From a virus, in IMG/VR virus record IMGVR_UViG_3300033146_001994, positions 23,548-87,547 of that record: a stretch of 64,000 bases of DNA; one strand, given 5' to 3'. The notes beneath the pieces are model-generated. The model saw only the letters and a program-made list of their open reading frames with translations. It searched no databases and was not told where the DNA came from. Below are positions 2,444-64,000 of this stretch, piece after piece. The translations under genes were made by a program, and so were the position numbers. Position 1 is the stretch's first letter. Every line of letters starts with the position of its first letter.

Positions 2444-4792
2444 ATGATACAATTTCCATATCAAAAAAGAGCAACATCACAGAAAACATTAAACTTTTGT
2501 ATTGAATGTTTAGAAAGTGCTGAACAGATGCAATCTGAATTATCTATAGCAAATGATAGTGCGGACTTGATAGATAATGAAAATATTCTAAAAGGTAAAT
2601 TAGACCCTGTAAGGCTTGAAAAAATTGTAAATCCTATTGGAATGAAATCTTCTACCTTTAGAGTACCTACCCAATCATATCCATTACTAAAAGATAAAGT
2701 TGACTTATTACAAGGAGAAGAATGGAAAAGAAAATTTGCTTTTTCAGCTAAGTTGTTAAATCCTGATGCTATTAAAGAAAAATATACTGTAAAAAATAAA
2801 TTTATTAAAGATGGATTAATTAGATTAATTACAGATACAGAATTAGATGATGATACTAAAAAGAAAAGAATAGAGAATTTACAAAACTCTATTATAAACT
2901 GGAAGTACATTAAAGAAATTAGAGCAAATAGAATTTTAGAGGCAGAATATGACTTACAAGGGCTAAAATCTCTTTTTAACAAAGGATTTAAAGCCCTGAA
3001 TACTACTAGAACAGAAATATACGCTATTGAGTTAGTAAATGGTAGAATACAAACTAGAGCTGTCAATTGGAAGAATATCAAGGCTGCTAGATTAGGAAGT
3101 TCAGATAGAATTGATGATGCAGATATTATTATAGAAGAAACATATGAATCTCCTGGATGGATTATAGATAGATACTATGATAAATTAAAACCTAGTGAAA
3201 TTACAAGAATTGATAAAGGACTTGTAGCACAATACGGTAATAGTAGAGATTTTTCATATCCAGCTACAGCAGGAGAAGTTACATTTAGTCGTAGTGACTT
3301 TGGAAAAACAGATATAACAACTACAAATAATATACAAAATAGCTTGATAGATACAAATGCCGTAGGCAAATCAAGTATATTAGATTCCTTTGGTAACATT
3401 AGAGTTACCAGACTTGTGTGGAAATCACTTAGAAAAATAGGTATAATTAAATGGATTGAAAACGGTAAAAACCATGAACGTACTGTAGATGAAAATTATA
3501 CAGCTAATAAAGACAAAGGAGAAGAAATAAATTGGTATTGGAAACCTGAATATATGCAGATAACTAGAATAGGGGATGATATATACCCTAGTGATTGGGG
3601 TATAAAAGCTATTCAATTTATGCAAAAAGATAATATTACTTCAGCAGGCAGTGGCTATGTGGGAAATGTTCTAGATGTATGTATTACAGATGTAATGAAG
3701 CCCTTTCAAGTATTATATGATATTATAATGGCTAGGACTAAGCATGCCTTTATAGTTAGTAGAGGTAAAGTTCCTGTTTTAGATTTAGCTAGAAAACCTA
3801 AATCATGGGATGTGGCTAAATGGGATTATTACCTCAATACTATGAATACCCTCTATGAAAACTCTTTTAATGAGGGTGCAGTAGGTGTAGCAAAAGGTAA
3901 AATATCAGGTAATATGCAACAATCCACTAGGGTAATGGATTTAGAAAATGGCGCCTATGTACAACAACATCTTTACATGCTACAATATATTGAAAAGAAA
4001 ATTGGCGATATTGTAGGTATATCTAAAGCTAGAGAGGGGCAATCATCCTCAACTGAAACAGCTACAGGTGTACAGAATGCAGTAACACAGTCTTATCATA
4101 TTACAGAGCCTTACTATGCTATACATGAAGCAATTAAAGATAGAGTATTAAATAATATATTAGAGGGTGTTAAATACTGTATTAAAGTTAACCCTGAATT
4201 ATATGAGAGTTATTTAGGGGATAATGATTTTATTTTAGATGAAATTGATTCTACACAGTTTACAGAAACTTCTTATAACGTTGTAGTTACTTCTAGTGGG
4301 GAAGATTATGAGCTACTTAATCAATATAAACAGTTAGCACATGCAGCTATTCAAAACAATGCTATGAAATTATCCACTCTTGCTACTATATATTCATCTA
4401 AATCAATATTGGAGGTTAGAGAAAAATTGGAAAAAGCTGAACAAGATTTAGAACAGAAAACAGCTCAACAAAACGAAGCTTCTGAAAAGATGAAAAATCA
4501 AATGATTCAATTAGAGTTAAAAGATAAACAAGATGATAGGGAATCTAAAGAACATATCAGTAATGAGAAAAATAAAATGCTTCTCCTTACAAAATTAATG
4601 GAGATTCAACGAGGAGAAAATGGAGATGAAATCTCAACAGAAGAAATGTTTCATAAAATGGAACAGAACTATTCTGAATTTTCAGCGCTTATTGAGCAAA
4701 GAGAAATAGAAAATAAAAGGGCTGAAAAAGAACAAGCATTAAAAGAGGAACAGTTGAAACAGCATCAAAATGCTTCACAGCAACAGAAATAG
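2444..4792 (+). CDS. Portal protein
   Basis: A 782-residue protein directly after TerL and two genes before the capsid gene, the usual place and size for a crAss-like portal. Portals form a dodecameric ring at one capsid vertex, dock the terminase and conduct DNA. The protein is mixed alpha/beta in character, with a central aromatic-rich region (WYWKPEY near residue 363) and a C-terminal tail of roughly 150 residues that is highly charged, Gln/Glu/Lys-rich and probably coiled coil, ending in Gln-rich sequence. The ATG at 2444 follows an A-rich leader with no Shine-Dalgarno, as expected for Bacteroidota. The call combines gene order, length and composition; no single catalytic motif exists for portals. 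Confidence 0.8.
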   Translation: MIQFPYQKRATSQKTLNFCIECLESAEQMQSELSIANDSADLIDNENILKGKLDPVRLEKIVNPIGMKSSTFRVPTQSYPLLKDKVDLLQGEEWKRKFAFSAKLLNPDAIKEKYTVKNKFIKDGLIRLITDTELDDDTKKKRIENLQNSIINWKYIKEIRANRILEAEYDLQGLKSLFNKGFKALNTTRTEIYAIELVNGRIQTRAVNWKNIKAARLGSSDRIDDADIIIEETYESPGWIIDRYYDKLKPSEITRIDKGLVAQYGNSRDFSYPATAGEVTFSRSDFGKTDITTTNNIQNSLIDTNAVGKSSILDSFGNIRVTRLVWKSLRKIGIIKWIENGKNHERTVDENYTANKDKGEEINWYWKPEYMQITRIGDDIYPSDWGIKAIQFMQKDNITSAGSGYVGNVLDVCITDVMKPFQVLYDIIMARTKHAFIVSRGKVPVLDLARKPKSWDVAKWDYYLNTMNTLYENSFNEGAVGVAKGKISGNMQQSTRVMDLENGAYVQQHLYMLQYIEKKIGDIVGISKAREGQSSSTETATGVQNAVTQSYHITEPYYAIHEAIKDRVLNNILEGVKYCIKVNPELYESYLGDNDFILDEIDSTQFTETSYNVVVTSSGEDYELLNQYKQLAHAAIQNNAMKLSTLATIYSSKSILEVREKLEKAEQDLEQKTAQQNEASEKMKNQMIQLELKDKQDDRESKEHISNEKNKMLLLTKLMEIQRGENGDEISTEEMFHKMEQNYSEFSALIEQREIENKRAEKEQALKEEQLKQHQNASQQQK

Positions 4793-6089: not shown

Positions 6090-7559
6090 ATGAAACTAAG
6101 ACCTTTTCAAATTACAACACCTAGGGACATATCAGGGCTAGTTAAAACTGAAAATTTAGCTTATAACTTTGGTATAGTGCCTCAAAAAGCATCTAAAGTT
6201 GCACTTAAATTGCGTAGTGCAAATGTTGGTGATGACTTAAATGCCTATTTATCAAAATTTCCTGTAAAGAAATTTGAAACACAAGATGACTTTACTTGGG
6301 ATATTGAAGCTGATGGAGATAAAAACATTCCATTGACAAAATGTTCATTAACTCCTTTAGGAAGTCAGGTACTACCTACTGACAAAGTTGGTGAGGGAAT
6401 AACTCCTTTTTATCTATTCTTTCCTGAAAATTGGTTTTTTGAAACCAATGTAATAGTTGGAGAAGCTTTAGAAGATTATCAAATTAGAATTTTAGAACCT
6501 GGACAGGCTGTAGCAGGAGGGTTAACTAGATATAAGTGTGAACTTGTAACTGGAGATGTCAATTTATTTATTCCTTTTGAAGAAGTAATGGCAGGTAAAA
6601 GATTCTCTAAAGACTTTTCTTTAGTAGAACAAGAACTTTCTGTAGATGGAGGTGGATTACACCACAGTTTTCCATATACTATGAAAGGTGCTTTCAGTAT
6701 GATTAGAATGAAAACTGTTGTTCCTGGCAGTATGGTTAATAAATCTCGCCCTGTACAATTCTTTTGGAAAGATTCTAAAACAGGTAAAACTATAAGTTCA
6801 TGGTTAGACAAGCTAACATATGACTTTGATATGCAGTTTCTTAAAGAGATTAATTATCTTACCCAATATGCACGCTCAAATGAAGCTCCTGATGGTACTT
6901 ATAAAAACAGAGGTACTTCTGGGAATATTATTAAGCAAGGTGATGGAATTAAAGCTCAAACACGTAAGTCTAACTATAGTACTTATAATGAATTTGATGT
7001 TAAAATTCTAAGTGACCATGTTTTAGCAATGTCTGTTGGTAAATATAAAATGGGTGAACGTGATGTTCTTTTAAACAGCGGTGAGTGGGGTCATAAACAA
7101 TTCCATGAATCTGTAGAGAATGTTCCTGGAGCTACATTTGTAGCATCAAGAGATACCCATAGAATCTATACCAATAAAGATGGTAATATGGGTTGGAGAG
7201 GACAATTTACTGAGTATTATGGTGCTAATGGAGTTAAGCTTACTAGTATTCCTGATATGACTAAGGATGACCCTGTTAGAAATAAAAGAAACCATCCTAC
7301 TGAACAAGGACTTATTGAATCAAGAAACTATGATATTTATAATATGGGTACTTCATCAGGTGAAAATAACATTCAGAAAGTTCAACTTGCTACTGGAGGA
7401 GAGATTAGAAAATTTAGAGAGGGCTTAAGGTCTCCATTTAGTAAAGGTGAGGGTAGAATGGAAGTAGAAACAGATGGATGGGAAGAACATAGAGCATACA
7501 TTGGTGGTGCAATGGTATTAGACCCTGAAGGAACTGGAGCTTATAATATTAATTTTTAA
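6090..7559 (+). CDS. Major capsid protein
   Basis: The 489-residue length, the position after portal and scaffold-like genes, and the sequence style match crAss-like major capsid proteins with the HK97 fold. Diagnostic stretches include an N-terminal RPFQITTPRDISGL and a downstream DIEADGDKNIPL segment, which resemble the N-arm and E-loop regions of this family. The C-terminal part has the Gly/Asn-rich, Tyr-rich composition seen in these capsids (SRNYDIYNMG, YIGGAMVLDPEG). It forms the icosahedral shell. The leader is A/T-rich with no Shine-Dalgarno. I recognise the family from the sequence; no alignment could be run. Confidence 0.88.
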   Translation: MKLRPFQITTPRDISGLVKTENLAYNFGIVPQKASKVALKLRSANVGDDLNAYLSKFPVKKFETQDDFTWDIEADGDKNIPLTKCSLTPLGSQVLPTDKVGEGITPFYLFFPENWFFETNVIVGEALEDYQIRILEPGQAVAGGLTRYKCELVTGDVNLFIPFEEVMAGKRFSKDFSLVEQELSVDGGGLHHSFPYTMKGAFSMIRMKTVVPGSMVNKSRPVQFFWKDSKTGKTISSWLDKLTYDFDMQFLKEINYLTQYARSNEAPDGTYKNRGTSGNIIKQGDGIKAQTRKSNYSTYNEFDVKILSDHVLAMSVGKYKMGERDVLLNSGEWGHKQFHESVENVPGATFVASRDTHRIYTNKDGNMGWRGQFTEYYGANGVKLTSIPDMTKDDPVRNKRNHPTEQGLIESRNYDIYNMGTSSGENNIQKVQLATGGEIRKFREGLRSPFSKGEGRMEVETDGWEEHRAYIGGAMVLDPEGTGAYNINF

Positions 7560-54376: not shown

Positions 54377-56512
54377 ATGAAAAAAATTTCGGAATTAATG
54401 CAGAAACAGTTTGACAAGATGTGCCAAACAGGTAAACTTTTTAGGTCAAATTTAACAGGAAAAGAAATATGGAAGCTCTATTTAGAAAACTTTAAAGAGC
54501 ACGACAATCCTATATTTAGAGATCCTGAAAGCTCTATGTATAATTGTAACACTTGTAATAATTTTATCAGAAGATATGGTAATATAGTATCTATAAACAA
54601 AAAGTTAAAGTTAGAAACTATTTTTGATATTGCTATAGACAAAGAAAATGAGTATTATTCTAGTTTTAAAATAATACGTTCAAGACTGAAAGTTAGTAAA
54701 ATAGAAAATATCTTTATTGAATCTTTTAAAGCACTACAAGAATTACCATATGAATCTTGCAAAAAATCACAAGAATCATTCAAACTTGGTATTACAGTCA
54801 ATCATAAAACCTATACTCAAGAAGAAGTTGATAAATTTGGTAAGGTTACATTGGGAAAAGTCTATACATTTAATCATTTTAATTTACAACTTCCTAGTAA
54901 GTTTGTAGATACATCAAATAAAAGTGTAGATACAATAATGGCTGATTTTAAATCTGCATATGATGTATTTAAAAGAGGTATGAAAGAGTTACCTCTAAGC
55001 ACATTACTTGTTGTAAAAGATTTGATTTTACAAGGCTCTTTACTGAATGGTAATGCGTATTTAGACAAGCTAAATACTTTTATAGAGCTTAAAGAACATT
55101 ATAATAAGATAACAACAGAAGAAGCACAAGATGTTTGGTGTTGGGATAAGTCTTATAACTTTAAGCAGGCTAAGTTTAAAAATGAATTAATAGGTGTACT
55201 ATGTACAGAATTGGCTGAGGGCAAAGAACTAAATAAAGTCTGTAAAGATTGGAATATAAGAATTGACCCTGTCAATTACATGAAAGCAACTTCGCCAATC
55301 ACAAAAACTCAAAAAGAAGATGCTCAAAAGTTTGTTGAAGAAAATGGTTATATTGATTCTTTTGATAGAAGATTTGCTAATATTGAAGATGTAAAAGTTG
55401 AAGAAATTAAGCATATTAATATCGAAAAGTCTAGTTTAGGGAATGTTTCAATATTTGATAATGTAAAAGTTACTCCATCTACAAGGCATAAGAAGTCTAA
55501 GTTTGATAATATAGAAGAAGTAACTATTGATAAATTTATGGCTGATATTTTGCCTACATGTTCATCTGTTGAATTATTGTTATTAAATAGATTTGAAAAT
55601 AACTTAGTATCTTTAACTACTTCAAACAAGTTACGTTCTAAACCAATGTTCAAATGGGATAATAATTTTTCATGGACTTATAATGGCAATTTAACAGGTA
55701 AATCTGAAATAAAAGAAGCTGTGAAAACACATAAAGGAAAGGTAGATGGTGTATTAAGATTTAGTATTATGTGGAGTGAAGATTCAAATGACAATTCAGA
55801 TTTAGATGCACGTTGTAATATCAATAACCGTAGAATCTATTATTTACATAAGATTGATAGTATTTCACAAGGGCAATTAGATGTAGATATTACAGAACCT
55901 GATACATATAAATATAAAAATTTACCTGTCATTGAAAATATAACATTTCCATCAATTGAAAAGTTAAACAACAGTATTTGTAAATTCAGAGTACATCAGT
56001 TTAGCAAAAAAGGTAAAGGTAACTTTAGAGCGGAAATAGCGTTTAATAATGAGATTTTTCAATATGAATATAAAAATGATTTTTCTAATCACACCTTTAT
56101 AGATGTAGCAGAAGTTAAAATTAAAAACAGTAAATTTTCAATTAAACATATTTTGCCTGAAATATCTTTGTCAAAATCTTTGTGGGGTTTAGATACTAAC
56201 ACATTTCATAAAGTAAATCTTATGTGTCTATCTCCAAATTATTGGGGAAAGAATGCAGTAGGACATAAACACTATTTTTTCATGCTTAACAGATGTAAAT
56301 CTCCTGATAATACAAGAAGCTTTCATAATGAAAACTTAAATTCAGAATTAACAAAACATAGAAAAGTCTTAGATGTTTTAGGAGAAACTACTAAATTAAA
56401 GCCATCTGCAGAAAATTACTTAGCAGGAGTAGGATTTAATTCTACTGTTAAAGATGAAATTGTCTTGCGCTTAAAAGGCAATTTTAATAGAATAATAAAA
56501 GTTAAACTTTAA
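54377..56512 (+). CDS. Large early-region protein, 711 aa, with beta-sandwich-like C-terminal half
   Basis: Not firmly recognised. The N-terminal ~330 residues are helical and charged, with a CNTCNNF motif near residue 57. After residue ~440, the segment VLRFSIMWSEDSNDNSDLDAR, IYYLHKI and GQLDVDI resembles the beta-sandwich of YfaP/DUF2135-type proteins, in which SDLD, LDVD and ENI motifs recur. It stands alone between two small genes and is the largest gene of this region. It has no signal peptide. A role in host take-over or replication is possible, but unsupported by motifs. Confidence 0.5.
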   Translation: MKKISELMQKQFDKMCQTGKLFRSNLTGKEIWKLYLENFKEHDNPIFRDPESSMYNCNTCNNFIRRYGNIVSINKKLKLETIFDIAIDKENEYYSSFKIIRSRLKVSKIENIFIESFKALQELPYESCKKSQESFKLGITVNHKTYTQEEVDKFGKVTLGKVYTFNHFNLQLPSKFVDTSNKSVDTIMADFKSAYDVFKRGMKELPLSTLLVVKDLILQGSLLNGNAYLDKLNTFIELKEHYNKITTEEAQDVWCWDKSYNFKQAKFKNELIGVLCTELAEGKELNKVCKDWNIRIDPVNYMKATSPITKTQKEDAQKFVEENGYIDSFDRRFANIEDVKVEEIKHINIEKSSLGNVSIFDNVKVTPSTRHKKSKFDNIEEVTIDKFMADILPTCSSVELLLLNRFENNLVSLTTSNKLRSKPMFKWDNNFSWTYNGNLTGKSEIKEAVKTHKGKVDGVLRFSIMWSEDSNDNSDLDARCNINNRRIYYLHKIDSISQGQLDVDITEPDTYKYKNLPVIENITFPSIEKLNNSICKFRVHQFSKKGKGNFRAEIAFNNEIFQYEYKNDFSNHTFIDVAEVKIKNSKFSIKHILPEISLSKSLWGLDTNTFHKVNLMCLSPNYWGKNAVGHKHYFFMLNRCKSPDNTRSFHNENLNSELTKHRKVLDVLGETTKLKPSAENYLAGVGFNSTVKDEIVLRLKGNFNRIIKVKL

Positions 56513-56893: not shown

Positions 56894-56920
56894 TAAAGGG
56901 CTTATAAATTGACATGTAAT

Positions 56921-57011
56921 TTCAGACAGATAAATGGAAGTTGTGGCTTAGTGGTGCAAATACACTATAACCTATAGTAGCTACTTCAGGTTCAACCCCT
57001 TTCTGTCTGGA
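56921..57011 (+). ncRNA. tRNA-like stem structure (degenerate or atypical tRNA)
   Basis: A 10-bp outer stem (56921-56930 with 57002-57011, one G-T pair) encloses a T-arm-like GGTTCAACCCC placed exactly next to the 3' acceptor strand, a D-loop-like TTAGTGGTGCA and a central hairpin (ACTATA/TATAGT at 56964-56978). However, the T stem has only three good pairs, the interior is about 15 bases too long, and no anticodon loop with U33 is found. It may be a decayed tRNA, an unusual class II tRNA or a tRNA-derived attachment site. Confidence 0.4.
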
Positions 57012-57048
57012 CTTATGTTTAATAAAATAGTAATTTAACTTTAAAATC

Positions 57049-57396
57049 ATGAAAAAAAATAAAGCTATGGATTTAAATTGTCCTTATTGCGGTGCAGAAT
57101 TAGAAATATGTCATGATGATGATTTTGGATATGAAGTAGGTGTTGAACATGAAATGGAATGTAGTAAATGTAATAAACTATTTATATTTAAAACATCAAT
57201 TTCTTTTTATTATAAAGCTAGAAAAGCAGACTGTCTAAATGGTGCTGAGCATAATTATAAAAAAGTAGCAACATTTCCAGAGGAATTCTCTAAAATGAAA
57301 TGTGAAGTTTGTGGTGCTGAAAGAGAATTTACTGATGAAGAACGTGTAAAGTTCGGTATTGGAACAAAAGAAAGTTATTTTGAAAGAATAAAATAG
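57049..57396 (+). CDS. Zinc-ribbon protein, 115 aa
   Basis: Contains CPYCGAELE (Cys11/Cys14), CSKCNKLF (Cys38/Cys41) and a third pair CEVCGAE (Cys85/Cys88). The first four cysteines can form one zinc ribbon; the third pair with His68 or Cys62 may form another. Proteins like this occur as short phage or mobile-element genes. The gap of 155 bases before it holds the tRNA-like element. It may be the last phage-core gene or the first cassette. Confidence 0.55.
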   Translation: MKKNKAMDLNCPYCGAELEICHDDDFGYEVGVEHEMECSKCNKLFIFKTSISFYYKARKADCLNGAEHNYKKVATFPEEFSKMKCEVCGAEREFTDEERVKFGIGTKESYFERIK

Positions 57397-57399
57397 TAT

Positions 57400-57425
57400 T
57401 ATTACTAATAGCTCTGATAAGATAT
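57400..57425 (+). repeat. Cassette-type junction of the second family (half-site)
   Basis: CTCTGATAAGATATGTTGC, just after the zinc-ribbon gene, is nearly the same as the sequence following the gene at 60471 (TTCTGATAAGATACGTTGC). It is followed in both cases by a short AT-rich leader and an AATATGAAATAC-like start. No 3' GTTRNNN core is found before the next gene. Confidence 0.4.
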
Positions 57426-57472
57426 GTTGCGACCATTGAAAACTAAATTATCAATATTGTAAAATCATAAAT

Positions 57473-57661
57473 ATGAAATACACAATAGAACAGAAAAAAC
57501 CACATAAAGACCAAATAATAGTTTTTAAAGCAAATCACGGTACATTCCCTGAGATTGGCATATGGTCTGATTTTGAAGATAACCTAAGTGAGGTTTATAT
57601 ACCTGCAAATGATGATGTGGAATTAGTTAAAAACATTGAATGGTGGATGCCAATAGAATAG
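57473..57661 (+). CDS. Small cassette-type protein, 62 aa
   Basis: A soluble protein with a Trp-rich C-terminus (IEWWMPIE), resembling the short DUF551-like proteins of phages and mobile elements. It starts with ATGAAATAC in the same context as the KH-domain gene at 60535. Followed by an attC-like site. Function unknown. Confidence 0.5.
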   Translation: MKYTIEQKKPHKDQIIVFKANHGTFPEIGIWSDFEDNLSEVYIPANDDVELVKNIEWWMPIE

Positions 57662-57668
57662 TATTATT

Positions 57669-58000
57669 GGTGTATGAACAATAGCCGATAAAAAACACAA
57701 CATTGCGATTACATATAAAGATTATTAACCAAATAATAGCTTAACATAAAGCACCTTAGCAGGCTATTATTTTTATTTATTGTTAGGGTGCATTATTTTA
57801 TGTTACAAACTTTAATTGATATATGTTTTGGAATAATAGGTATAGTAATAATAATACTATTTACAATATTATATCAAAATATTACAGGAGAAAATGCTGA
57901 ATTTGCAATGTGGATAGTTAATGTTATGATTAGCATTATTGTGGTGCTAAGACAATTTAAACGAAATGCACCCTAACGGTGTGGATATGGGCTGATTGCC
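57669..58000 (+). mobile_element. Gene cassette 1 with its 5' and 3' attC-like sites
   Basis: The 5' site runs from about 57669 to 57788. ACAATAGCC (57678-57686) pairs with GGCTATTAT (57762-57770), and the site ends in GTTAGGG (57782-57788); its R''-like end is degenerate. The cassette begins TTAGGGTGCATT and its tail at 57965-57977 is AATGCACCCTAAC, the exact reverse complement of GTTAGGGTGCATT (13 of 13). The tail continues ACGGTGTGGATATGGGC, the array's 5'-half consensus, but no 3' half is found before the next gene. Confidence 0.65.
57800..57976 (+). CDS. Cassette gene: small membrane protein, 58 aa
   Basis: Two hydrophobic segments (LIDICFGIIGIVIIILFTILY and AMWIVNVMISIIVVL) with a basic end (RQFKRNAP). 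The ATG at 57800 is preferred; a GTG at 57788 would overlap the recombination core. The stop codon TAA (57974-57976) is part of the CCCTAAC box of the attC-like site, as often seen in integron cassettes. Function unknown. Confidence 0.5.
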   Translation: MLQTLIDICFGIIGIVIIILFTILYQNITGENAEFAMWIVNVMISIIVVLRQFKRNAP

Positions 58001-58036
58001 CTTGAAATTTAGTAAATAACTTAAAATTGAAATGCA

Positions 58037-58423
58037 GTGGAAAATAATAAAGAGAATGTAAATAAAAAGAACGGCAATTTGCCTATATTTAGTATTAGTG
58101 GCAGTTTTTTGCTACGAATAGCACTAAGCCCATTTTTATTTCTATGGGGAGTTTTTATGTTAATGGTGGGAACATTATTTCCACTACCTTTATTGGTTAT
58201 ATTTAGCACGATGGGGCTTATAGTAACACCATTTGTTTGGTTATTGCGAAAAAGTGGTACAGACATAAAATACCCTGAACCATTTATGGCAAAAGGAGAA
58301 GATTATGGAAATGAAAAAAACATAATGCGTGACCATTTATTTGGAGCAACTATATATGTATGGGGGGCATTTGCAGTAGCATACTACTATGTAAAAACAG
58401 GTGAAGTATTTACTGTAGGTTAA
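58037..58423 (+). CDS. Cassette-region membrane protein, 128 aa
   Basis: The likely start is GTG at 58037, since no ATG lies near in frame. There are at least two transmembrane segments at about residues 25-70 (LSPFLFLWGVFMLMVG, PLLVIFSTMGLIV) and another near 105-120 (IYVWGAFAVAYYY). It is preceded by the shared leader block ATAACTTAAAATTGAAAT. Not recognised. Confidence 0.5.
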   Translation: MENNKENVNKKNGNLPIFSISGSFLLRIALSPFLFLWGVFMLMVGTLFPLPLLVIFSTMGLIVTPFVWLLRKSGTDIKYPEPFMAKGEDYGNEKNIMRDHLFGATIYVWGAFAVAYYYVKTGEVFTVG

Positions 58424-58426
58424 ATT

Positions 58427-58465
58427 GCTATTAATGGCTCTGTTATACATTATTGTAACAAATCA
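58427..58465 (+). repeat. Diverged cassette junction of the second family
   Basis: ATTAATGGCTCTGTTATACATTATTGTAAC follows the stop of the membrane-protein gene after a few bases and aligns with the other second-family junctions by its AATNGCTCTG start. GTTATAC and its partner TTGTAAC could form a short hairpin. No GTTRNNN core follows before the next gene at 58496. Confidence 0.3.
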
Positions 58466-58495
58466 CTATAATATTTAATAAAAAAACAGAATAAA

Positions 58496-58687
58496 ATGGT
58501 AGGAAAATATGTAATCATAGACTTAAGAAGCATAGACCATGTGAAAGACCAAATGGTCTATATGACAGACCAAAACGGCAAAATTATCCTCTGTAACACT
58601 GAGATAGATGCCGCCATAACTTGCGAAATGCTTGGATTTAAAAATGTTTGGATTTGCAAATTGATTTTTAATTATGTAAATATTTGA
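58496..58687 (+). CDS. Small cassette-region protein, 63 aa
   Basis: A short alpha/beta protein (KYVIIDLRSIDHVKDQMVYM) with two cysteines. The ATG lies in an A-rich leader. No match recognised. The neighbouring junctions are degenerate, so it is unclear whether it shares a cassette with the next gene. Confidence 0.4.
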   Translation: MVGKYVIIDLRSIDHVKDQMVYMTDQNGKIILCNTEIDAAITCEMLGFKNVWICKLIFNYVNI

Positions 58688-58719
58688 TAAGATGAAAAAA
58701 ATATAATTAATTATAATAT

Positions 58720-58725
58720 AGGAGG
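58720..58725 (+). promoter_or_regulatory. Strong Shine-Dalgarno sequence (AGGAGG)
   Basis: A perfect AGGAGG five bases before the ATG at 58731. Other genes in the window have A-rich leaders without it, so this one stands out as coming from a host that uses Shine-Dalgarno initiation. Confidence 0.7.
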
Positions 58726-58730
58726 ATTTT

Positions 58731-58994
58731 ATGAATAAAAAAGATACTAAAAGACTTGAAAACATAAAGAAAAGATTAGGTGTAACAACAAAAGCAGAAA
58801 ATGTAGTAGTGGAGCATTTATTCAAACGTGACTTAAATAGAAGTATATTACTTGAGAGTTATGGTGATATTAAAGAAAAAGACGGGTGGATTCAAATAAA
58901 TGCAATAACAAATAAACATTCCTATTTATTTAGTATATCAGTAAGTGAACTAGAAAAGGGAGACGAAAGAGAGTTATGGCACAAAATTGATTAA
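58731..58994 (+). CDS. Cassette-region soluble protein, 87 aa
   Basis: A charged protein: an N-terminal basic helix (KKDTKRLENIKKRLGVTTKAE) followed by a beta-type end. The start is fixed by the perfect Shine-Dalgarno. No family recognised. The different initiation signal suggests recent transfer. Confidence 0.5.
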   Translation: MNKKDTKRLENIKKRLGVTTKAENVVVEHLFKRDLNRSILLESYGDIKEKDGWIQINAITNKHSYLFSISVSELEKGDERELWHKID

Positions 58995-59080
58995 TTGATA
59001 TAATGGAATACAGCTATATGTAAGGTTTTGATAAAAAGTCGTTTTAATGTTTTTTATTTATTATTAGCGTTTTGTTTTAT

Positions 59081-59100
59081 TAATAACTTAAAATTGAAAT
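59081..59100 (+). repeat. Shared cassette leader block
   Basis: TAATAACTTAAAATTGAAAT lies directly before the gene at 59103. A copy with 19 identical bases precedes the gene at 58037 (58015-58033), and weaker versions precede the genes at 61419 and 61861. It may supply translation signals to cassette genes. Confidence 0.5.
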
Positions 59101-59102
59101 CA

Positions 59103-59291
59103 ATGAAAGAAATACTAAATACTAATCAAATATTAAAAGCAACAATTTGGTTAAAAGAACATAGAAAACACGTTTATGATATGGTGTGTAATTCAAAAAA
59201 TGAATATCCACCAACAGATAACAAAGATAAGAATAATCCTAATTTATGGAAACCTGAACATTGGAAATGGTTTTTGCATAATGCAGGGTAA
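59103..59291 (+). CDS. Cassette gene: small protein, 62 aa
   Basis: ATG at 59103 after the shared leader block. A helical, basic-aromatic protein ending WKPEHWKWFLHNAG. The stop TAA is inside the GGGTAAC box of the following attC-like site. Function unknown. Confidence 0.5.
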   Translation: MKEILNTNQILKATIWLKEHRKHVYDMVCNSKNEYPPTDNKDKNNPNLWKPEHWKWFLHNAG

Positions 59292-59406
59292 CGGTTTGTA
59301 TATAAAACGGTGCAAAACGAAATGTAATAGAAAACAGAGAATTAAATAATTAAATATAAACTAAATAAAAGACCACAACAGCATTGTTTTATATACTTTG
59401 TTACGT
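59286..59406 (+). mobile_element. attC-like recombination site 2
   Basis: The R'' box is GGGTAAC (59286-59292). GTATATAAAAC (59298-59308) is perfectly complementary to GTTTTATATAC (59386-59396). The R' core is GTTACGT (59400-59406). Total ~121 bases, within the range of integron attC sites. The next cassette starts TTACGTGGCGTT. Confidence 0.75.
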
Positions 59407-59418
59407 GGCGTTAAGAAA

Positions 59419-59733
59419 ATGGGCGATTATATTGATAATGTTGTTATTAGGCTAAAAAGAAAATATAGCAAGGACGAACTTGTGCAAAGTATGCTTAAGG
59501 AGCAAAGCCAACTTGAATTAGAAAATGGTATACTTAAAAGTGAAAAAGATGAATTGGAATATGAACTAAACCAAATAAAAAAAATGGATAGCAAAACCAA
59601 ACGAGATTTTCACCAAACTTTATATGTTAAAAACACTAAGAAAGAATTAAAAGCTTTGCGCGAATTATGCAAGAAACTTAAAAAAGAAAACCAAGAACTT
59701 TGGGGTAAGTTGGCAAAAGCTAATGCCACATAA
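59419..59733 (+). CDS. Cassette gene: coiled-coil protein, 104 aa
   Basis: ATG at 59419 is preferred over upstream codons that overlap the R' core. Almost entirely heptad-like coiled coil (ELVQSMLKEQSQLELENGIL, LKALRELCKKLKKENQELW). Similar short coiled-coil proteins occur in phages. No specific function. Confidence 0.55.
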   Translation: MGDYIDNVVIRLKRKYSKDELVQSMLKEQSQLELENGILKSEKDELEYELNQIKKMDSKTKRDFHQTLYVKNTKKELKALRELCKKLKKENQELWGKLAKANAT

Positions 59734-59737
59734 TAGA

Positions 59738-59859
59738 TGGTAATACGGTGTTGGTGCGAAAATGAAAGCGCTTACTTAAATTAACCACAAAATTAAGAAT
59801 GAAATATGGAAATTAAATATTAACCACATACTCGCACTACATTATATTTTATGTTGTGG
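59738..59859 (+). mobile_element. attC-like recombination site 3
   Basis: The 5' half GGTAATACGGTGTTGGTGCG pairs through GGTGCG with CGCACTAC (59833-59840) in the 3' half. The R' core is GTTGTGG (59853-59859). The stop region just before (GCCACATAA) is also similar to a normal R'' box, suggesting a small insertion between box and stem. ATTAACCACATACTCGC shares the ATTAACC element found in other sites. Confidence 0.6.
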
Positions 59860-59882
59860 TGCGTTTATTTAAAATTATAGCA

Positions 59883-60059
59883 ATGCCAAAAGGAAAACCG
59901 AAAAGTAAATTTGTATTTGATATAGACCCAAAAACAGGGAAAGAAAAGGGTTGTGAATACGAAAATGGAACTTGGTGTGATTTACCTAAATATAAAAGAT
60001 GTGAACATTGTATTAGGCTAAACGACGGAAGTAAGGCTTGTTATGTTACTTCTCTTTAA
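59883..60059 (+). CDS. Cassette gene: Cys-rich small protein, 58 aa
   Basis: A basic N-terminus (PKGKPKSKF) followed by five cysteines (CEYENGTWC, CEHC, C near the end), a likely zinc site. ATG at 59883; a GTG at 59856 overlaps the R' core. Function unknown. Confidence 0.5.
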   Translation: MPKGKPKSKFVFDIDPKTGKEKGCEYENGTWCDLPKYKRCEHCIRLNDGSKACYVTSL

Positions 60060-60063
60060 TGCA

Positions 60064-60195
60064 CCACAACGGTGTGAATATGGCAAGTAGCCAACAATAG
60101 AATGAGAATTTTTAAAATAAATATAATGTTTAACCTTTCGCAAATAGCTCCAAAAAGACCACATAGCAGGCTATTTGCTATATTTTATGTTATGT
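60064..60195 (+). mobile_element. attC-like recombination site 4
   Basis: The R'' box is CCACAAC (60064-60070), followed by GGTGTGAATATGGCAAGTAG. The end of that half (AGTAGCC) and GGCTATTTGC (60169-60178) are complementary. The R' core is GTTATGT (60189-60195). The element AAAGACCACATAGCA before the 3' half is also present in site 2. Confidence 0.75.
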
Positions 60196-60207
60196 GGCGT
60201 TGAAATT

Positions 60208-60471
60208 ATGAAAATAACTAAAATTTATTACAATTTTGTGCAAGTTCAATTTGAAGATGGGGCAGGAGAAGATTACATGATAGCGGAAGTAGGAAAACCA
60301 TTTTTATCTTATAATGGTGGTGATGAATATCAAGACAAAAAAATTATCAATATCACAGAACACAGACCCGCGGGTGAAGGCGATAAATGGTTTTACGATA
60401 TTGAATTAGAAGATGACAAAATTGTTAGAGTGTTTAATATTAATTCAGTATTTTATTCAAATGCCACATAA
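60208..60471 (+). CDS. Cassette gene: small acidic protein, 87 aa
   Basis: ATG at 60208. A beta-rich acidic protein (KIYYNFVQVQFEDGAGEDYMI, KWFYDIELEDDKIVRVFN), probably a small barrel. The stop TAA is inside the CACATAAC box. Not recognised. Confidence 0.5.
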   Translation: MKITKIYYNFVQVQFEDGAGEDYMIAEVGKPFLSYNGGDEYQDKKIINITEHRPAGEGDKWFYDIELEDDKIVRVFNINSVFYSNAT

Positions 60472-60495
60472 CAGTTCTGATAAGATACGTTGCAA
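60465..60495 (+). repeat. Cassette tail box with second-family junction
   Basis: CACATAAC (60465-60472) with its flank is complementary to the cassette start GTTATGTGGCGTT at 60189 (12 of 13 bases). It is followed by AGTTCTGATAAGATACGTTG, almost identical to 57402-57421. No GTTRNNN core precedes the next gene, so the 3' half is missing or of another type. Confidence 0.55.
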
Positions 60496-60534
60496 ATACA
60501 AAGAATTGATTTATAAATTTAATAAGATTTAAAT

Positions 60535-60876
60535 ATGAAATACTTACGTAACAAATTAGCACAATTTAAGCAATGGATTTCATCTATTGTTAAGTTTCGT
60601 TTTTGTAAAATTACAAGTGAAACTCAAAAATCAAAAAGAATTAAATCATTATTTGAAACTTATTTCGATGGATGTTACGGAGTGGATGCACAAGAAACCG
60701 TATCAAATACTTATGCAATGGGAATATGTAAGTTAGAATATAGTGATAGTACAAATATACTTACTGTGCATCTACGTAGACCCGGATTATTAATTGGAAA
60801 ACAAGGCAGAATTATTGAAGAAGTTGAGAAATATTTAAAATGTAAAATCAAAATAATTGAGATAACACATTTTTAA
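60535..60876 (+). CDS. KH-domain RNA-binding protein, 113 aa
   Basis: The C-terminal ~40 residues (TVHLRRPGLLIGKQGRIIEE) carry the GxxG loop (G88-K-Q-G91) of a KH domain, in the arrangement of type II KH folds such as ribosomal protein S3. The N-terminal ~40 residues are basic. It would bind single-stranded RNA or DNA. It lies in the cassette array and is followed by a very good attC-like site. Confidence 0.7.
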   Translation: MKYLRNKLAQFKQWISSIVKFRFCKITSETQKSKRIKSLFETYFDGCYGVDAQETVSNTYAMGICKLEYSDSTNILTVHLRRPGLLIGKQGRIIEEVEKYLKCKIKIIEITHF

Positions 60877-60881
60877 ATGAA

Positions 60882-61011
60882 ACTTAACGGTGTAGCGTAT
60901 GAAATGTAGGCGATTAAAACAACTACTTTTCATATTTGCACCAAACTAAATTAAAAGATGAAACGATTATTAACCGACATACACGCCTATATTTTATACG
61001 CATTGTTAGGC
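60882..61011 (+). mobile_element. attC-like recombination site 5 (best-paired site)
   Basis: The R'' box is ACTTAAC (60882-60888). GCGTATGAAATGTAGGCG (60895-60912) pairs with CGCCTATATTTTATACGC (60984-61001) at 16 of 18 positions. The R' core is GTTAGGC (61005-61011), which fits the integron consensus GTTRRRY exactly. The spacer contains ATTATTAACC, shared with other sites. Confidence 0.85.
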
Positions 61012-61030
61012 GTATGTGCTTTAAATTAAA

Positions 61031-61306
61031 ATGATTATGAATAAGTCAATAGAAATAAAACATTTCAATTTAATAGATTACAATATTCTTTTAAAAGTTG
61101 TCACTGAATATGTAAAGCAATATCAAATAAGTAGAAATAAATTTGAATATGAAAAACATATATTTGACTTAACAGATACCGTATATGGTTTGAAATGTCA
61201 TAAAAATCCTGTTAAGATTTCAATAGATAATCATTGGAAATCGTTTTGGGTTAAAGTAAGAGAAACAAAAACTAAATATAAATTTGATATATGGTATGCT
61301 TCTTAG
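61031..61306 (+). CDS. Cassette gene: small protein, 91 aa
   Basis: ATG at 61031 (a second ATG at 61037 is equally possible). A soluble basic protein rich in Lys, Tyr and Asn (EYVKQYQISRNKFEYEKHIF; DNHWKSFWVKVRET). Lies between two attC-like sites as a single-gene cassette. Not recognised. Confidence 0.5.
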   Translation: MIMNKSIEIKHFNLIDYNILLKVVTEYVKQYQISRNKFEYEKHIFDLTDTVYGLKCHKNPVKISIDNHWKSFWVKVRETKTKYKFDIWYAS

Positions 61307-61313
61307 CATTACG

Positions 61314-61375
61314 ACTAATGGTTAGTATAAGATGCAACGCAGTGACCGTAGGGTGCATTTTATACATTGTTAGCC
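61314..61375 (+). mobile_element. attC-like recombination site 6 (short type)
   Basis: GTATAAGATGCA (61325-61336) pairs with TGCATTTTATAC (61354-61365) with one mismatch. The R'' is ACTAAT and the R' is GTTAGCC (61369-61375). About 62 bases, the size of the shortest integron attC sites. Confidence 0.75.
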
Positions 61376-61418
61376 TTAGTATGGCTTAATTTAGTAATAA
61401 CTTAAATAAATAGAAATA

Positions 61419-61778
61419 ATGAATAGAGAAATAAAATTTAGAGCATGGGATAAGCAAAATAACGCATTTGCTGAATTATATACAAATGTAGATTGTATGA
61501 ATAATTTAGATAATGATAATGTTGCAATTATGCAGTATTCTGGTTTAAAAGACAAAAATAATAAGGAAATATTTGAAGGTGATATTATTAAAATCCCTGA
61601 TGATTATGATACTTACGGAATATTTGCAGGGGAAATATACGAAATATATTTTGCTTATGGTGGATTTAGATTAAAACCTAAAAACTCAAAAAGGCGTGGG
61701 AATTGGCTTGAAGATGAAAAAGAATTAGAAGTGATAGGTAATATTTATGAAAATAAAGACTTATTACCTACTTCTTAA
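61419..61778 (+). CDS. YopX-family phage protein
   Basis: The N-terminus MNREIKFRAWDKQNNAF and the middle motif MQYSGLKDKNNKEIFEGDII are the hallmark of the YopX family, common in phages of many bacteria but without a proven function. The 119-residue length is typical. As a single-gene cassette with an attC-like site on its left and a matching tail on its right, it shows that phage-type genes are carried in this array. Confidence 0.85.
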   Translation: MNREIKFRAWDKQNNAFAELYTNVDCMNNLDNDNVAIMQYSGLKDKNNKEIFEGDIIKIPDDYDTYGIFAGEIYEIYFAYGGFRLKPKNSKRRGNWLEDEKELEVIGNIYENKDLLPTS

Positions 61779-61784
61779 TATTAA

Positions 61785-61815
61785 GGCTAACGGATTATGG
61801 CTATGTATAGTGCCG
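61785..61815 (+). repeat. Cassette tail box (R'' GGCTAAC), 3' half not found
   Basis: TAAGGCTAAC is complementary to the start of the same cassette (GTTAGCCTTA at 61369) over 10 of 10 bases. It is followed by GGATTATGGCTATGTATAG, similar to other 5' halves, but no GTTRNNN core is seen before the next gene at 61861. Confidence 0.55.
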
Positions 61816-61860
61816 GCAAATTGCACGGAACTTTAAATTATTAACTTAAATTAGTGAGCG

Positions 61861-62274
61861 ATGAAAATAATTATAAAACCTGTAAATGATATAGAAAAAA
61901 AAGATTTCCCAAAAAGTGTTGTTTCAATGCAATTAGGAATATCTCTTTTTATATTAGAACAATCTGATATTGAAGAAGTAATTAAGAAATTAAGCAAATA
62001 TAGTGAACGACAAAAAAACACTGACCATTTAGAAAACACCGAACAAAAGGCATTACATATAGATGATATTATGTTGTGTCTTGAATTAAGATTAAATATA
62101 GATACATGGGGGAGTTATAAAAAAGGCGATATAGAAGTATTTTACATAAGAATTTGCGATGAACAAAACGGCTTAGTTAGATATCCAATAGATAAAAGAT
62201 GGGATATTATTAGTTGTAGTTTAGTGAATGCCCCTAACAGTTCTAATGAGAATAGTAACCGAAATATAATATGA
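61861..62274 (+). CDS. Cassette-region protein, 137 aa
   Basis: A soluble protein with a helix-rich first half and an EVFYIRICDEQNGLVRYPIDK segment. The reading frame runs through a CCCTAAC box (62232-62238), so the last ~14 codons may not belong to the original gene. The start is ATG at 61861 after an ATTAACTTAAATT leader. Not recognised. Confidence 0.45.
   Translation: MKIIIKPVNDIEKKDFPKSVVSMQLGISLFILEQSDIEEVIKKLSKYSERQKNTDHLENTEQKALHIDDIMLCLELRLNIDTWGSYKKGDIEVFYIRICDEQNGLVRYPIDKRWDIISCSLVNAPNSSNENSNRNII
62232..62262 (+). repeat. Cassette tail box with second-family junction
   Basis: CCCTAAC (62232-62238) followed by AGTTCTAATGAGAATAGTAACC, related to the second-family sequence at 60473. 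It lies inside the 3' end of the preceding reading frame. Confidence 0.4.
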
Positions 62275-62372
62275 TGGTTTACTGAATATAAAATAAAATA
62301 AATATTGTAAAATAGTATATGATATAAAAATAATGTATATATTTACAGTAAATAATATATAAAAAGTACACC

Positions 62373-62996
62373 ATGAAAACAAATCAAATAATGGTTAGAG
62401 AAGAAAAGCAATTTCTACAACGGACAAAAGATGGTTATTTTAGTGCTACCACACTTTTGAACTATTGGAATACAAATAACCCAAAAAAAAGAAAAGAAAT
62501 GGGTATTTACAAAAGAAATAAAAGTACAAAGGAATTTATTAAACATTTGCAAAAAGAGAATATTGAAAACCCTTACATTTCATCAAATAAGGGAACTTGG
62601 CTTCATCCAAAATTATTTATCGATTTTGCAATGTGGGTTTCTGTTGAGTTTAAAAGTAAGGTTATTGATTATGTCTTGGATGGACTTATATTTAATCGGA
62701 ATGAAGCAGGAGATTATTATAAAGAAATGTGTGCGACTATTATGGATACTCATATTGAATTTTTCGGAACAAAACCAAATCCGAAAATATACAGTGAAGA
62801 AGCTAATAGAATTACAAAAATATTAAAATTACATAAAAAGGATAGAAACCTAATGACCGAAAATGAATTGAATACCATAACTGTATTGCAAAAAACAAAC
62901 GTTTTACTATTGCGAAAAAAGGTAGGGAAAGATGCAAGAATAAAGCAATTAATGCTTCAAGCAGAAATATTAAATATTGACGACCATTCTTTGTAG
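62373..62996 (+). CDS. KilA-N domain protein (phage DNA-binding / antirepressor type)
   Basis: A 207-residue protein whose first ~110 residues fit the KilA-N domain: YFSATTLLNYWN, a basic middle, then GTWLHPKLFIDFAMWVSVEFKSKVIDYVLDG. KilA-N proteins are found in phages and large DNA viruses, where they bind DNA and often act as antirepressors or regulators. The C-terminal ~90 residues are helical and basic and may be a second binding part. It is followed by a weak attC-like site. Its start is preceded by a 98-base AT-rich leader. Confidence 0.8.
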   Translation: MKTNQIMVREEKQFLQRTKDGYFSATTLLNYWNTNNPKKRKEMGIYKRNKSTKEFIKHLQKENIENPYISSNKGTWLHPKLFIDFAMWVSVEFKSKVIDYVLDGLIFNRNEAGDYYKEMCATIMDTHIEFFGTKPNPKIYSEEANRITKILKLHKKDRNLMTENELNTITVLQKTNVLLLRKKVGKDARIKQLMLQAEILNIDDHSL

Positions 62997-63093
62997 CCTT
63001 GAATGGAGAGCTAATAAATTACATAGAATTAAATAGATATTATTAACCACAGATTAAGCAATTAACCGCTATCATTTTTATTTATTGTTAAGG
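62983..63093 (+). mobile_element. attC-like recombination site 7 (weak 5' half)
   Basis: The 3' half is clear: ATTATTAACC, CCGCTATCATTTTTATTTAT and an R' core GTTAAGG (63087-63093), all features shared with site 1. The 5' half (CCTTGAATGG with GAGAGC) is diverged and pairs poorly. Confidence 0.45.
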
Positions 63094-63094
63094 A

Positions 63095-63244
63095 TTGTTT
63101 ACTTATGGAAAAAGAATAAAAAAAAGTAAAAAAAGTATTTCAACAGCACATCATTCAATATTAATTGGAGATGGATTATTTACAGATAAATCTTATCATT
63201 TATTGGTGAATAAGAATGGTGTAAAAATTGACAAAATTGCTTAA
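63095..63244 (+). CDS. Possible very small cassette gene, 49 aa, non-ATG start
   Basis: An open frame from a TTG right after the R' core to a TAA that forms part of the GCTTAAC box. The product would be basic at the start (GKRIKKSKKS) with a beta-type end (HHSILIGDGLFTDKSYHLLV). The alternative ATG nearby gives only four codons. It may be a decayed gene. Confidence 0.3.
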   Translation: MFTYGKRIKKSKKSISTAHHSILIGDGLFTDKSYHLLVNKNGVKIDKIA

Positions 63245-63301
63245 CGTGCCGATTATATGGCACGTATGAGGAACGAATATGGGCTATATAATGTGTTGTG
63301 T
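63239..63301 (+). mobile_element. attC-like recombination site 8 (short type)
   Basis: The R'' is GCTTAAC (63239-63245). GATTATATGGC (63251-63261) pairs with GGCTATATAAT (63282-63292) except for one G-T and the end base. The R' is GTTGTGT (63295-63301). About 63 bases. The 112 bases after it, up to the next gene, hold only a G-rich leader with no gene. Confidence 0.55.
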
Positions 63302-63413
63302 GTCTGTGGGCGGGGATTATAGCACAAAGTTTATTTTGCGAAACAAGAATTAAAAAAGAAAAAAAGGGAAGGCGAAAACTTTATAGAGTAGCCAAATAAA
63401 TAAATTTATAAAA

Positions 63414-63632
63414 ATGGATAATTCATTTTACGAAAGACTTCTAACAGAAGCACAAGAGTTGGCAACAAAAACAAATGCCTTAAATGACTTTATGAGAACG
63501 CAAAAATTCGTTGATTTAGATAGGGTAAACAAAAATTTACTTTACAAGCAATCGAGATTAATGAATGAGTATTTACAAATACTTGGGCAACGAATTGAAT
63601 TGTTTGGCGAGAAGTTTTCTTTTAAGAAGTAG
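63414..63632 (+). CDS. Cassette gene: short helical phage protein, possibly Acb2/Tad1-like
   Basis: A 72-residue helical-hairpin protein with the pattern FYERLLTEAQELATKTNALN, then FVDLDRVNKNLLYKQSRLMN and YLQILGQRIELFG. This resembles the small phage family that includes the Acb2/Tad1 hairpin proteins, which sequester cyclic nucleotide signals of CBASS or Thoeris defence. The resemblance is judged by eye. If correct, an anti-defence gene is carried as a mobile cassette. Confidence 0.5.
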   Translation: MDNSFYERLLTEAQELATKTNALNDFMRTQKFVDLDRVNKNLLYKQSRLMNEYLQILGQRIELFGEKFSFKK

Positions 63633-63670
63633 TGCGGTGGGCTTTTTATTTTTAACCCCAAATAACGCAC

Positions 63671-63721
63671 AAAGTTAGAAACGTGGTACAGTGTTAGCAT
63701 TGGTTATACGCATTGTTAGGC
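63671..63721 (+). mobile_element. attC-like recombination site 9 (3' end clear)
   Basis: Ends in R' GTTAGGC (63715-63721) preceded by TATACGCATT, identical to the end of site 5. The R''-like end is uncertain (ATAACGCACAAAG). The site is short and its pairing is weak. Confidence 0.45.
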
Positions 63722-63796
63722 ACTGTGCCACCTTTAAACAGGAGCAAGTGTTTAGCAATTAACGAATATAATATCATTTTTGGCATTGTGCCTAAC
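63716..63796 (+). mobile_element. ORF-less mini-cassette
   Basis: An 81-base unit starting TTAGGCACTGTGCC and ending GGCATTGTGCCTAAC. Its end is complementary to GTTAGGCACTGTGCC at 13 of 15 positions, the same start-to-tail relation as the gene-bearing cassettes. No reading frame with a plausible start fits inside it. Confidence 0.55.
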
Positions 63797-63921
63797 GGTG
63801 TGAATATATTGTTGGTGCGATTTATAAAACGATTGCCTGACATCAGAAAAACATTAAATGTGAAACGAGAAAATTTAAAATATAGTAATAACCAAGCACT
63901 GCAATATATTTGTTGTTGTGG
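63790..63921 (+). mobile_element. attC-like recombination site 10
   Basis: The R'' is GCCTAAC (63790-63796). GAATATATTGTTGGTGC (63802-63818) pairs with GCACTGCAATATATTT (63896-63911), with one gap. The R' is GTTGTGG (63915-63921), the same core as site 3. The next cassette starts TTGTGGTGCGTTAAATTC. Confidence 0.75.
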
Positions 63922-63941
63922 TGCGTTAAATTCTTAATATT

Positions 63942-64000
63942 ATGAGAAAATTTAATTTAGAAGCGAAAATAACAATTAGTGTTCATACTGTTGTTGATGC
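63942..64000 (+). CDS. Cassette gene, 3'-partial at the window edge
   Basis: ATG at 63942 opens a frame (MRKFNLEAKITISVHTVVDA) that runs off the window. It lies 20 bases after an R' core, the usual distance in this array, so it is probably another cassette gene and the array continues to the right. Confidence 0.55.
   Translation, partial: MRKFNLEAKITISVHTVVD

Follow-up and report, generated by a model that had tools for sequence, protein, structure and literature searches.

A 64,000-nucleotide stretch of viral DNA (the window; C1:23548-87547, the last 64 kb of the 87,547-base IMG/VR record IMGVR_UViG_3300033146_001994) ends in an array of short genes and attC-like sites resembling the cassette array of an integron. 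The array runs from 57.4 to 64.0 kb and continues for 0.8 kb past the contig join (L004:1-818, L004 being the stretch across that join), which brings it to about 7.4 kb in total. We propose, with a probability of roughly two in three, that it is a cluster of attC sites lacking an integron integrase (CALIN) within the circular genome of a crAss-like phage, that its sites belong to a family spread across the Bacteroidota, and that the enzyme most likely to act on them is a host-supplied recombinase related to XerA and IntI that lacks the IntI-specific insertion. An original prediction, made from the sequence alone, had described an integron-like cassette array joined to a crAss-like phage genome. 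Both parts of that description are supported, the first by covariation, by the complementarity of cassette starts and ends and by the same architecture in Bacteroidota arrays, and the second by the relatives of the capsid protein together with PHROG matches for terminase, portal and capsid.

Nine full sites of the array align without hand work, and they were used to build a covariance model (R1), whose matches to these nine training sites are by construction. Over the 7.4 kb, R1 gave 11 matches at E <1e-4, namely the nine training sites and two others scoring 47.0 and 35.0 bits, in addition to two weak matches. Run on the array and on the rest of the record, the model confines the sites to the array, the best match elsewhere reaching only E 1.8; 45 other viral loci, 756 kb in all, gave no match at E up to 1. 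Seven of the ten R' cores originally listed (57782, 59400, 59853, 60189, 61005, 61369 and 63915) end R1-matching sites, six of them training sites and one, 57782, held out (35.0 bits, E 9e-5). The cores at 63087 (E 0.17) and 63295 (E 0.066) have weak matches only, and 63715 has none. The list was also incomplete: a site with R' at 60589, which overlaps an open reading frame (ORF), and another at 57967-58104 had been overlooked, and two further sites lie beyond the join (L004:206-345 and L004:477-614), outside the stretch first read. The internal pieces said to be shared among sites are real and peculiar to the array, where ATTATTAACC occurs three times, AAAGACCACA twice and ACGGTGTG three times; none was found elsewhere on either strand of the record, searched apart from C1:20001-23547. 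The layout of one gene per site holds for most of the array, and fails at about 58.4-59.1 kb and 61.8-63.0 kb (the region of the KilA-N gene), where there are only truncated sites or none. With at least two attC sites a few kilobases apart and no tyrosine recombinase in the record (a search of all 87,547 bases with PF00589, Phage_integrase, gave no match), the array is a CALIN, and no IntI stands beside it.

The sites have the structure of integron attC sites, with R''/R' boxes and paired L''/L' arms. Across the nine full sites, the helix scored (17 L''/L' pairs and seven R''/R' pairs) was paired in 82.4% of cells, and its covariation score of 0.499 compares with 0.238 +/- 0.033 in shuffles, none of 500 reaching it, and with at most 0.167 when the partner was slid. 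The duplexes of each L'' with its own L' sum to -98.7 kcal/mol, and 0 of 20,000 re-pairings were as low. Of 60 R' candidates within the array, 11 form strong L''/L' duplexes (<= -10 kcal/mol), vs 5 of 500 outside it; 20 dinucleotide shuffles gave a mean of 0.45 (maximum 1). On the array's reverse strand there are 12 such duplexes, as expected of palindromic sites.

The ends of the cassettes are those of units with a circular form, the start of a cassette (after G/TT) being complementary to its own end. Over 12 cassettes of the phage array this holds at 90 of 108 positions, vs at most 76 in 50,000 re-pairings, most of these ends having been chosen by a complementarity scan and two by eye, so that the permutation test flatters. 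The corresponding test in Bacteroidota is fairer because the ends were registered by box motif (35 of 41 R1 matches used, L142 and L143 excluded); there, 145 of 243 positions are complementary over 27 cassettes, and 20,000 re-pairings gave at most 113. The outer arm of this site family spans about 14 bases and carries a mismatch at position 11. Among 53 Bacteroidota cassettes (those scoring at least 11/16 in a set of 77; one of the 77 comes from the phage contig L143), there is a match at positions 1-9 in 50-53 cassettes, at position 11 in none and at positions 12-13 in 51-52, and position 11 has G at the start and A in the reverse-complemented end in 49; five of seven cassettes of the crAss-like array were kept at the same score. 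This G/A recurs in nine of 12 crAss-like cassettes, the one at 57782 pairing at that position (A/A) and those at 61005 and 63087 deviating otherwise. In a published Vibrio phage integron fragment that PMC9892861 names, analyzed as a control, end complementarity extends over 9-11 bases, with eight of 12 pairs registering well; position 11 is G/A in three of 11, and pairing is not resumed after it.

The same sites are widespread in the Bacteroidota. R1 matched (E <= 0.001) 89 of 395 sampled genomes, and the stretches fetched from six of them (G050, G185, G201, G229, G315 and G370) hold arrays of R1 sites. Six arrays (in G050, G185, G092, G315, G370 and G229, the G092 locus having one site) have a tyrosine recombinase of 272-376 aa at or close to an end. 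These six enzymes score 185-228 bits with the IntI model, whose cut-off is 265, and all six lack the IntI-specific insertion when aligned against two IntI proteins that carry it. In a phylogenetic tree, from which 10 loci whose recombinase the motif search had missed and one long branch were excluded, the array recombinases are separated from three Bacteroidota Xer sequences (100/100) and placed beside or around IntI; a clade beside IntI and a grade including IntI are not separated by the data (approximately unbiased test, p 0.27). No IntI above its cut-off was present in the eight array genomes examined more closely, and no IntI with the insertion was found beside the sister arrays.

The sites and the enzyme are also associated across the whole sample. 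A search with four of these recombinases, in which five candidates were scored per genome, found an XerA-like enzyme in 110 of the 395 genomes. Of these, 56 are among the 89 with R1 matches (24.8 expected, p 1e-15), and 49 remain vs 21.6 expected when the eight discovery genomes are removed (p 2e-13), whereas IntI (107 genomes at E <= 1e-60) shares 20 genomes with R1 where 24.1 are expected (p 0.28). Within 5 kb of a listed R1 site were 14 of 129 XerA-like genes, in 14 genomes, vs 0 of 121 IntI genes, counts that are lower bounds because eight R1 candidates were scored per genome and positions were listed for 71 of the 89. In genomes with both, the discovery genomes again removed, the figures within 5 kb are 12 of 49 vs 0 of 20 for IntI (p 0.014), and within 20 kb 14 of 49 vs 1 of 20 (p 0.05). 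The Fisher tests on association, adjacency and G+C treat sites or genomes as independent. In G201 (contig C1), which has R1 arrays, several recombinase genes that score the same or almost the same are dispersed through the genome. Pattern scans for a single site motif returned three IMG/VR and 12 GTDB stretches that were taken as chance, none of the 15 having paired halves by eye and most being coding-like.

The first and last 63 bases of the record are identical, and it is therefore read as circular, with 87,484 unique bases. It is a complete genome of a size in keeping with the Crassvirales, slightly under the 93-102 kb of six records with related capsids. The terminase, portal and capsid genes match phrog_11589, phrog_6547 and phrog_6681. 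The capsid query matched 114 phage records, all at <60% identity; the 20 relatives listed share 33-36% identity with it over 95-99% of its length, which marks the phage as divergent, and five of the six capsid-related records opened are classified as Crassvirales. These relationships support placing the phage as crAss-like. Close relatives did not turn up in single-protein scans with the DNA polymerase, helicase and terminase, and the capsid query added two 7-kb contigs only. The phrog_1735 gene retrieved 40 loci at 30-46% identity, which have no R1 matches; rows listed from a blastn search of the array against named phages and plasmids cover just 1-4% of the query, and single-site blastn in phages gave no E <1 among the matches listed.

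Sites of this family occur in other phage sequences, namely L149 and L150 (IMG/VR records found via the site pattern), L219, and phage contigs of G293. L149 has two cassettes (L149:3251-7039), one encoding a metallo-beta-lactamase-fold protein (PADLOC PDC-M48B, LmuA) and the other a 613-aa protein without clear match. In L150 (4754-6502), a GmrSD/HNH gene matching a type II restriction enzyme model lies beside an ORF that matches part of the EcoRI methylase at the stretch end. In L219, three sites with short genes lie between genes judged by eye to be lysis-like and RecT-like, and ten sites were counted on three G293 contigs that carry genes of phage type (RusA-like, endolysin, Erf-like, single-strand binding and tail). 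As separate observations, the L149 record also encodes a Phage_integrase gene, and the L150 site follows a 669-aa phage gene (terminase-like by eye, without a Pfam match), a second site there lying in the opposite orientation.

Gene direction relative to the site differs between small-ORF phage arrays and bacterial arrays. In bacterial stretches, 67 of the 69 longest ORFs between neighboring sites run opposite to R1 (one of the 69 being from phage L149), and among 30 single genome loci 19 are opposite, one same, one both and nine unclear. The 24 sites in small-ORF phage arrays divide into 17 same, one opposite, one both and five unclear (in that order, 8, 0, 0 and 3 in the crAss-like array, 6, 1, 1 and 2 in the G293 contigs, and 3, 0, 0 and 0 in L219); the three sites of L149 and L150 give one opposite and two both. 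The counts for the single genome loci and for the phage sites use a bar of 50 aa both ways, an earlier count having set 25 aa for same vs 50 aa for opposite. An ATG within the site that opens a frame of at least 45 codons out through R' was found in 11 of 24 phage sites, vs three in the other direction, and in four and one of 30 genome loci; with any start codon, the figures are 14 and 8 of 24 and 11 and 5 of 30. It is L219 (2 and 0 of 3) and the G293 contigs (7 and 1 of 10) that produce the ATG excess; the crAss-like array alone shows none, with 2 and 2 of 11. Similar residues, N-L-P-I-F/Y, are encoded at three related sites (57967 of the crAss-like array, one in L143 and one in L219). Phages may make use of site-borne start codons. 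Separately, two ORFs starting in sites of L215 (1289-1549 and 102-353, minus strand) share an N-terminus of about 30 residues, LQKVANGELT-EQAD.

We envisage the following route for cassette exchange. The mobile unit would be a short gene with its attC-like site, mostly of about 140 bp, and the substrate the folded single strand of that site. Replication could expose single-stranded phage DNA, upon which a tyrosine recombinase related to IntI and XerA and without the IntI-specific insertion, as seen near Bacteroidota arrays, might be supplied in trans by the phage's host, bind the folded sites and swap strands at G/TT. Cassettes would in this way be gained, lost and reshuffled between phage and host arrays, and their genes could be expressed by read-through phage transcription along the + strand. 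The phage may therefore ferry genes for a little-known cassette-swapping system.

Several observations weigh against this proposal. Double changes are seen in 13 of 24 helix pairs, which is unexceptional, 79 of 500 shuffles getting there. Folding energies of whole sites above shuffled controls, the literal test set out with the original prediction, failed for most sites: of 12 bottom strands folded, two had z < -2 and the other 10 did no better than shuffles, which we attribute to the long AT-rich loop. Run over 83.9 kb, the raw scan for complementary ends (11/13 matches) is unspecific: besides 12 pairs in the array, it returns nine + strand pairs outside it and 35 pairs on the reverse strand. 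Among the 89 R1-positive genomes, 33 have no XerA-like match at the cut-off used, and shared taxonomy could account for part of the genome-level association. No host genome emerged from the 395 Bacteroidota genomes (two candidates scored per genome), where the best match to the array DNA is 74% over about 110 bp and itself lies on a phage contig. Finally, since the phage genes face the other way with respect to their sites, the phage did not acquire its cassettes by simple copying from arrays of the sampled kind. The truncation of several phage sites, consistent with decay, belongs here as well, and it also suits the suggestion that cassettes entered a phage ancestor once and that exchange is now over. 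Truncated or degenerate sites near 57.4, 57.97, 61.8, 62.2 and 63.2 kb (partly identified by eye) would fit such a dead remnant, as would the lack of R1 matches in the six capsid-related reference records, of which five are classified as Crassvirales. However, eight sites still score 98-114 bits with R1 (all of them training sites) and the close match of cassette ends persists, and we give this account a slim chance; G+C (28.6% vs 29.1%) is uninformative on the question.

An alternative that deserves more weight, though we think it unlikely, is that the phage and Bacteroidota arrays are ordinary integron cassettes moved by true IntI of the host, with the XerA-like genes as bystanders. IntI is above the curated cut-off in 105 of the 395 genomes, phage attC sites of other types have been found to function with IntI1 in the sections of PMC9892861 consulted, and in G009 an IntI lies 6.5 kb from an R1 site (C1:1203831 and 1210334); no other IntI of the sample comes within 20 kb of any listed R1 site. 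Against it stand the missing association between IntI and R1 and the 5-kb counts given above, in which XerA-like genes are found and IntI is not. It is much harder to see the repeats as structures that serve some other purpose, for instance as RNA hairpins, terminators or sites where phage transcripts are processed. The + strand, on which the array genes lie, often has G-U pairs at two fixed positions of the helix, but an RNA hairpin gives no reason for R''/R' boxes or for complementarity between start and end across a whole gene; neither the window nor L004 matches an Rfam family at gathering scores, and bacteria have arrays of these sites near recombinases, all of which makes such a role very improbable. 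Least credible is a chimeric assembly of phage and bacterial DNA. The record is metagenomic, with no reads on hand, yet the 63-bp overlap that closes the circle falls within an intact 66-aa cassette gene (63942 to L004:205) whose cassette, from 63915 to L004:216, has matched ends. Because the contig closes inside the array and phage genes lie on either side, two independent false joins would be needed, and other phage contigs bear the same sites.

Beyond the host-supplied recombinase favored here, we tentatively advance a broader reading to which we would give somewhat less than even odds. The Bacteroidota may harbor a second integron lineage, whose recombinase, related to IntI and XerA, never acquired the IntI insertion and whose sites, about 140 bp long, have an outer arm with a fixed mismatch; phages, crAss-like ones included, would hold their own branch of the cassette pool with genes inverted relative to the site, and some sites would provide a start codon and the first residues, so that a cassette could be translated, as a fusion, as soon as it is inserted. 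We slightly lowered our estimate for this reading because the crAss-like array shows no start-codon excess.

Features of the array and of the phage genes in the window (coordinates of the window unless prefixed)
Feature	Position	Strand	Basis or remark
Terminase large subunit	128..2413	+	PHROG match; identifies phage
Portal protein	2444..4792	+	PHROG match
Major capsid protein, crAss-like	6090..7559	+	PHROG match and capsid relatives
Left flank phage gene, phrog_1735	54377..56512	+	PHROG match
Left flank ORF, 115 aa, zinc-ribbon-like, under Pfam cut-offs	57049..57396	+	Pfam search
attC-like site, degenerate R'' (R' core 57782)	57644..57792	+	R1 35.0 bits, held out of training
Cassette ORF, 58 aa; cassette 57782-57977 with matched ends	57800..57976	+	
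attC-like site, degenerate R', overlaps start (GTG 58037) of next ORF	57967..58104	+	R1 47.0 bits, E 2.5e-7, held out
ORF, 128 aa, GTG start, reads out of preceding site	58037..58423	+	
attC-like site (R' 59400)	59282..59410	+	Alignment, covariation, R1
Cassette ORF, 104 aa	59419..59733	+	
attC-like site (R' 59853)	59724..59863	+	Alignment, covariation, R1
Cassette ORF, 58 aa, stop immediately 5' of next site	59883..60059	+	
attC-like site (R' 60189)	60060..60199	+	Alignment, covariation, R1
Cassette ORF, 94 aa	60187..60471	+	
attC-like site (R' 60589)	60462..60599	+	Alignment, R1
ORF, 113 aa, KH domain, ATG within preceding site	60535..60876	+	
attC-like site (R' 61005)	60878..61015	+	Alignment, covariation, R1
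Cassette ORF, 91 aa	61031..61306	+	
attC-like site, short loop (R' 61369)	61309..61379	+	Alignment, covariation, R1
Cassette ORF, YopX domain; cassette ends 61369 / 61791 complementary	61419..61778	+	
ORF, 137 aa, truncated sites either side	61861..62274	+	
ORF, 207 aa, KilA-N domain; not in a proven cassette	62373..62996	+	
Weak attC-like site (R' 63087)	62994..63097	+	R1 E 0.17
Weak attC-like site (R' 63295)	63235..63305	+	R1 E 0.066
ORF, 72 aa	63414..63632	+	
Very short cassette, matched ends, no listed ORF	63715..63796	+	
attC-like site (R' 63915)	63786..63925	+	Alignment, covariation, R1
Cassette ORF, 66 aa, across 63-bp contig overlap	63942..64000, on to L004:205	+	

To the right of the array, past the join, lie dUTPase, DNA polymerase A and helicase genes. 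The DNA polymerase A is split into two ORFs with about 0.55 kb between them (L004:3680-4224), an intron-like interruption that matches no Rfam family, and a second inter-ORF stretch (L004:7770-8104) resembles the same kind of interruption by eye. Just left of the array, positions 56915-57020 look tRNA-like by eye, with an end stem in which CAGACAG pairs with CTGTCTG; ARAGORN called no tRNA in the window. Further to the left, a GroEL-type chaperonin gene is found on the minus strand (48932-50524; phrog_5725, E 6e-131; Cpn60_TCP1).

IntI, with its extra domain, is what defines an integron. Arrays of integron-type sites near recombinases that lack this domain would have a direct bearing on the origin of integrons from Xer-like enzymes, and such Bacteroidota arrays may be overlooked, or scored as orphans, by present tools. 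Phage carriers would supply the cassette pool with a vehicle, and the cassettes of the two other phage records described above, L149 and L150, hold defense-like genes.

The literature cited here consists of parts of four papers (PMC9892861, PMC8138268, PMC9668308 and PMC9024848). Among the matches listed from the open-licence literature, with subscription papers and preprints outside its scope, no attC array in a crAss-like phage was described, nor an insertion-less recombinase together with such arrays. The original prediction likewise knew of no established crAss-like case; attC arrays in phages without an integrase are, as such, already published. Qi et al. 2023 (PMC9892861), in the sections consulted, report 17 CALINs in phages, virulent ones included, five of six tested sites being active with IntI1; the words 'crAss' and 'Bacteroid' are absent from its main text. 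As for the recombinases, the portion of Smyshlyaev et al. 2021 (PMC8138268) on an integron-like subgroup of simple tyrosine recombinases does not mention arrays for members without the insertion, and in the part of the IntegronFinder 2.0 paper considered there is one complete integron in Bacteroidetes proper, an earlier survey having found only lone integrases.

The array shares with the published phage CALINs its attC-type sites and short cassettes in an integrase-less phage genome, and differs from those described in the sections of PMC9892861 consulted in having nine full sites and weaker ones over 7.4 kb and sister arrays with a non-IntI recombinase. It also belongs to a different site family from that of Polaribacter phage P12002L, in which R1 has no match up to E 10. 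Like integrons, it has R''/R' boxes, an L''/L' helix, circle-type complementarity of cassette ends and mostly one short gene per site; unlike them, it has an outer arm of about 14 bases with the position-11 mismatch. The name integron suits the anatomy of sites and cassettes and does not apply in the strict sense, because the recombinase that goes with the sister arrays lacks the IntI-specific insertion. These array-adjacent recombinases score 198-237 bits with the XerA-type model NF040815, which NCBI names 'site-specific tyrosine recombinase/integron integrase', three of the six exceeding its cut-off of 220, and they depart from that type in the N-terminal extension of about 85 residues found in four of the six and in the full support with which all split from the three Bacteroidota Xer sequences. 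Phage CALINs with active sites are already known (PMC9892861); what appears new here, as far as the open-licence listings go, is the crAss-like case and the IntI-less type.

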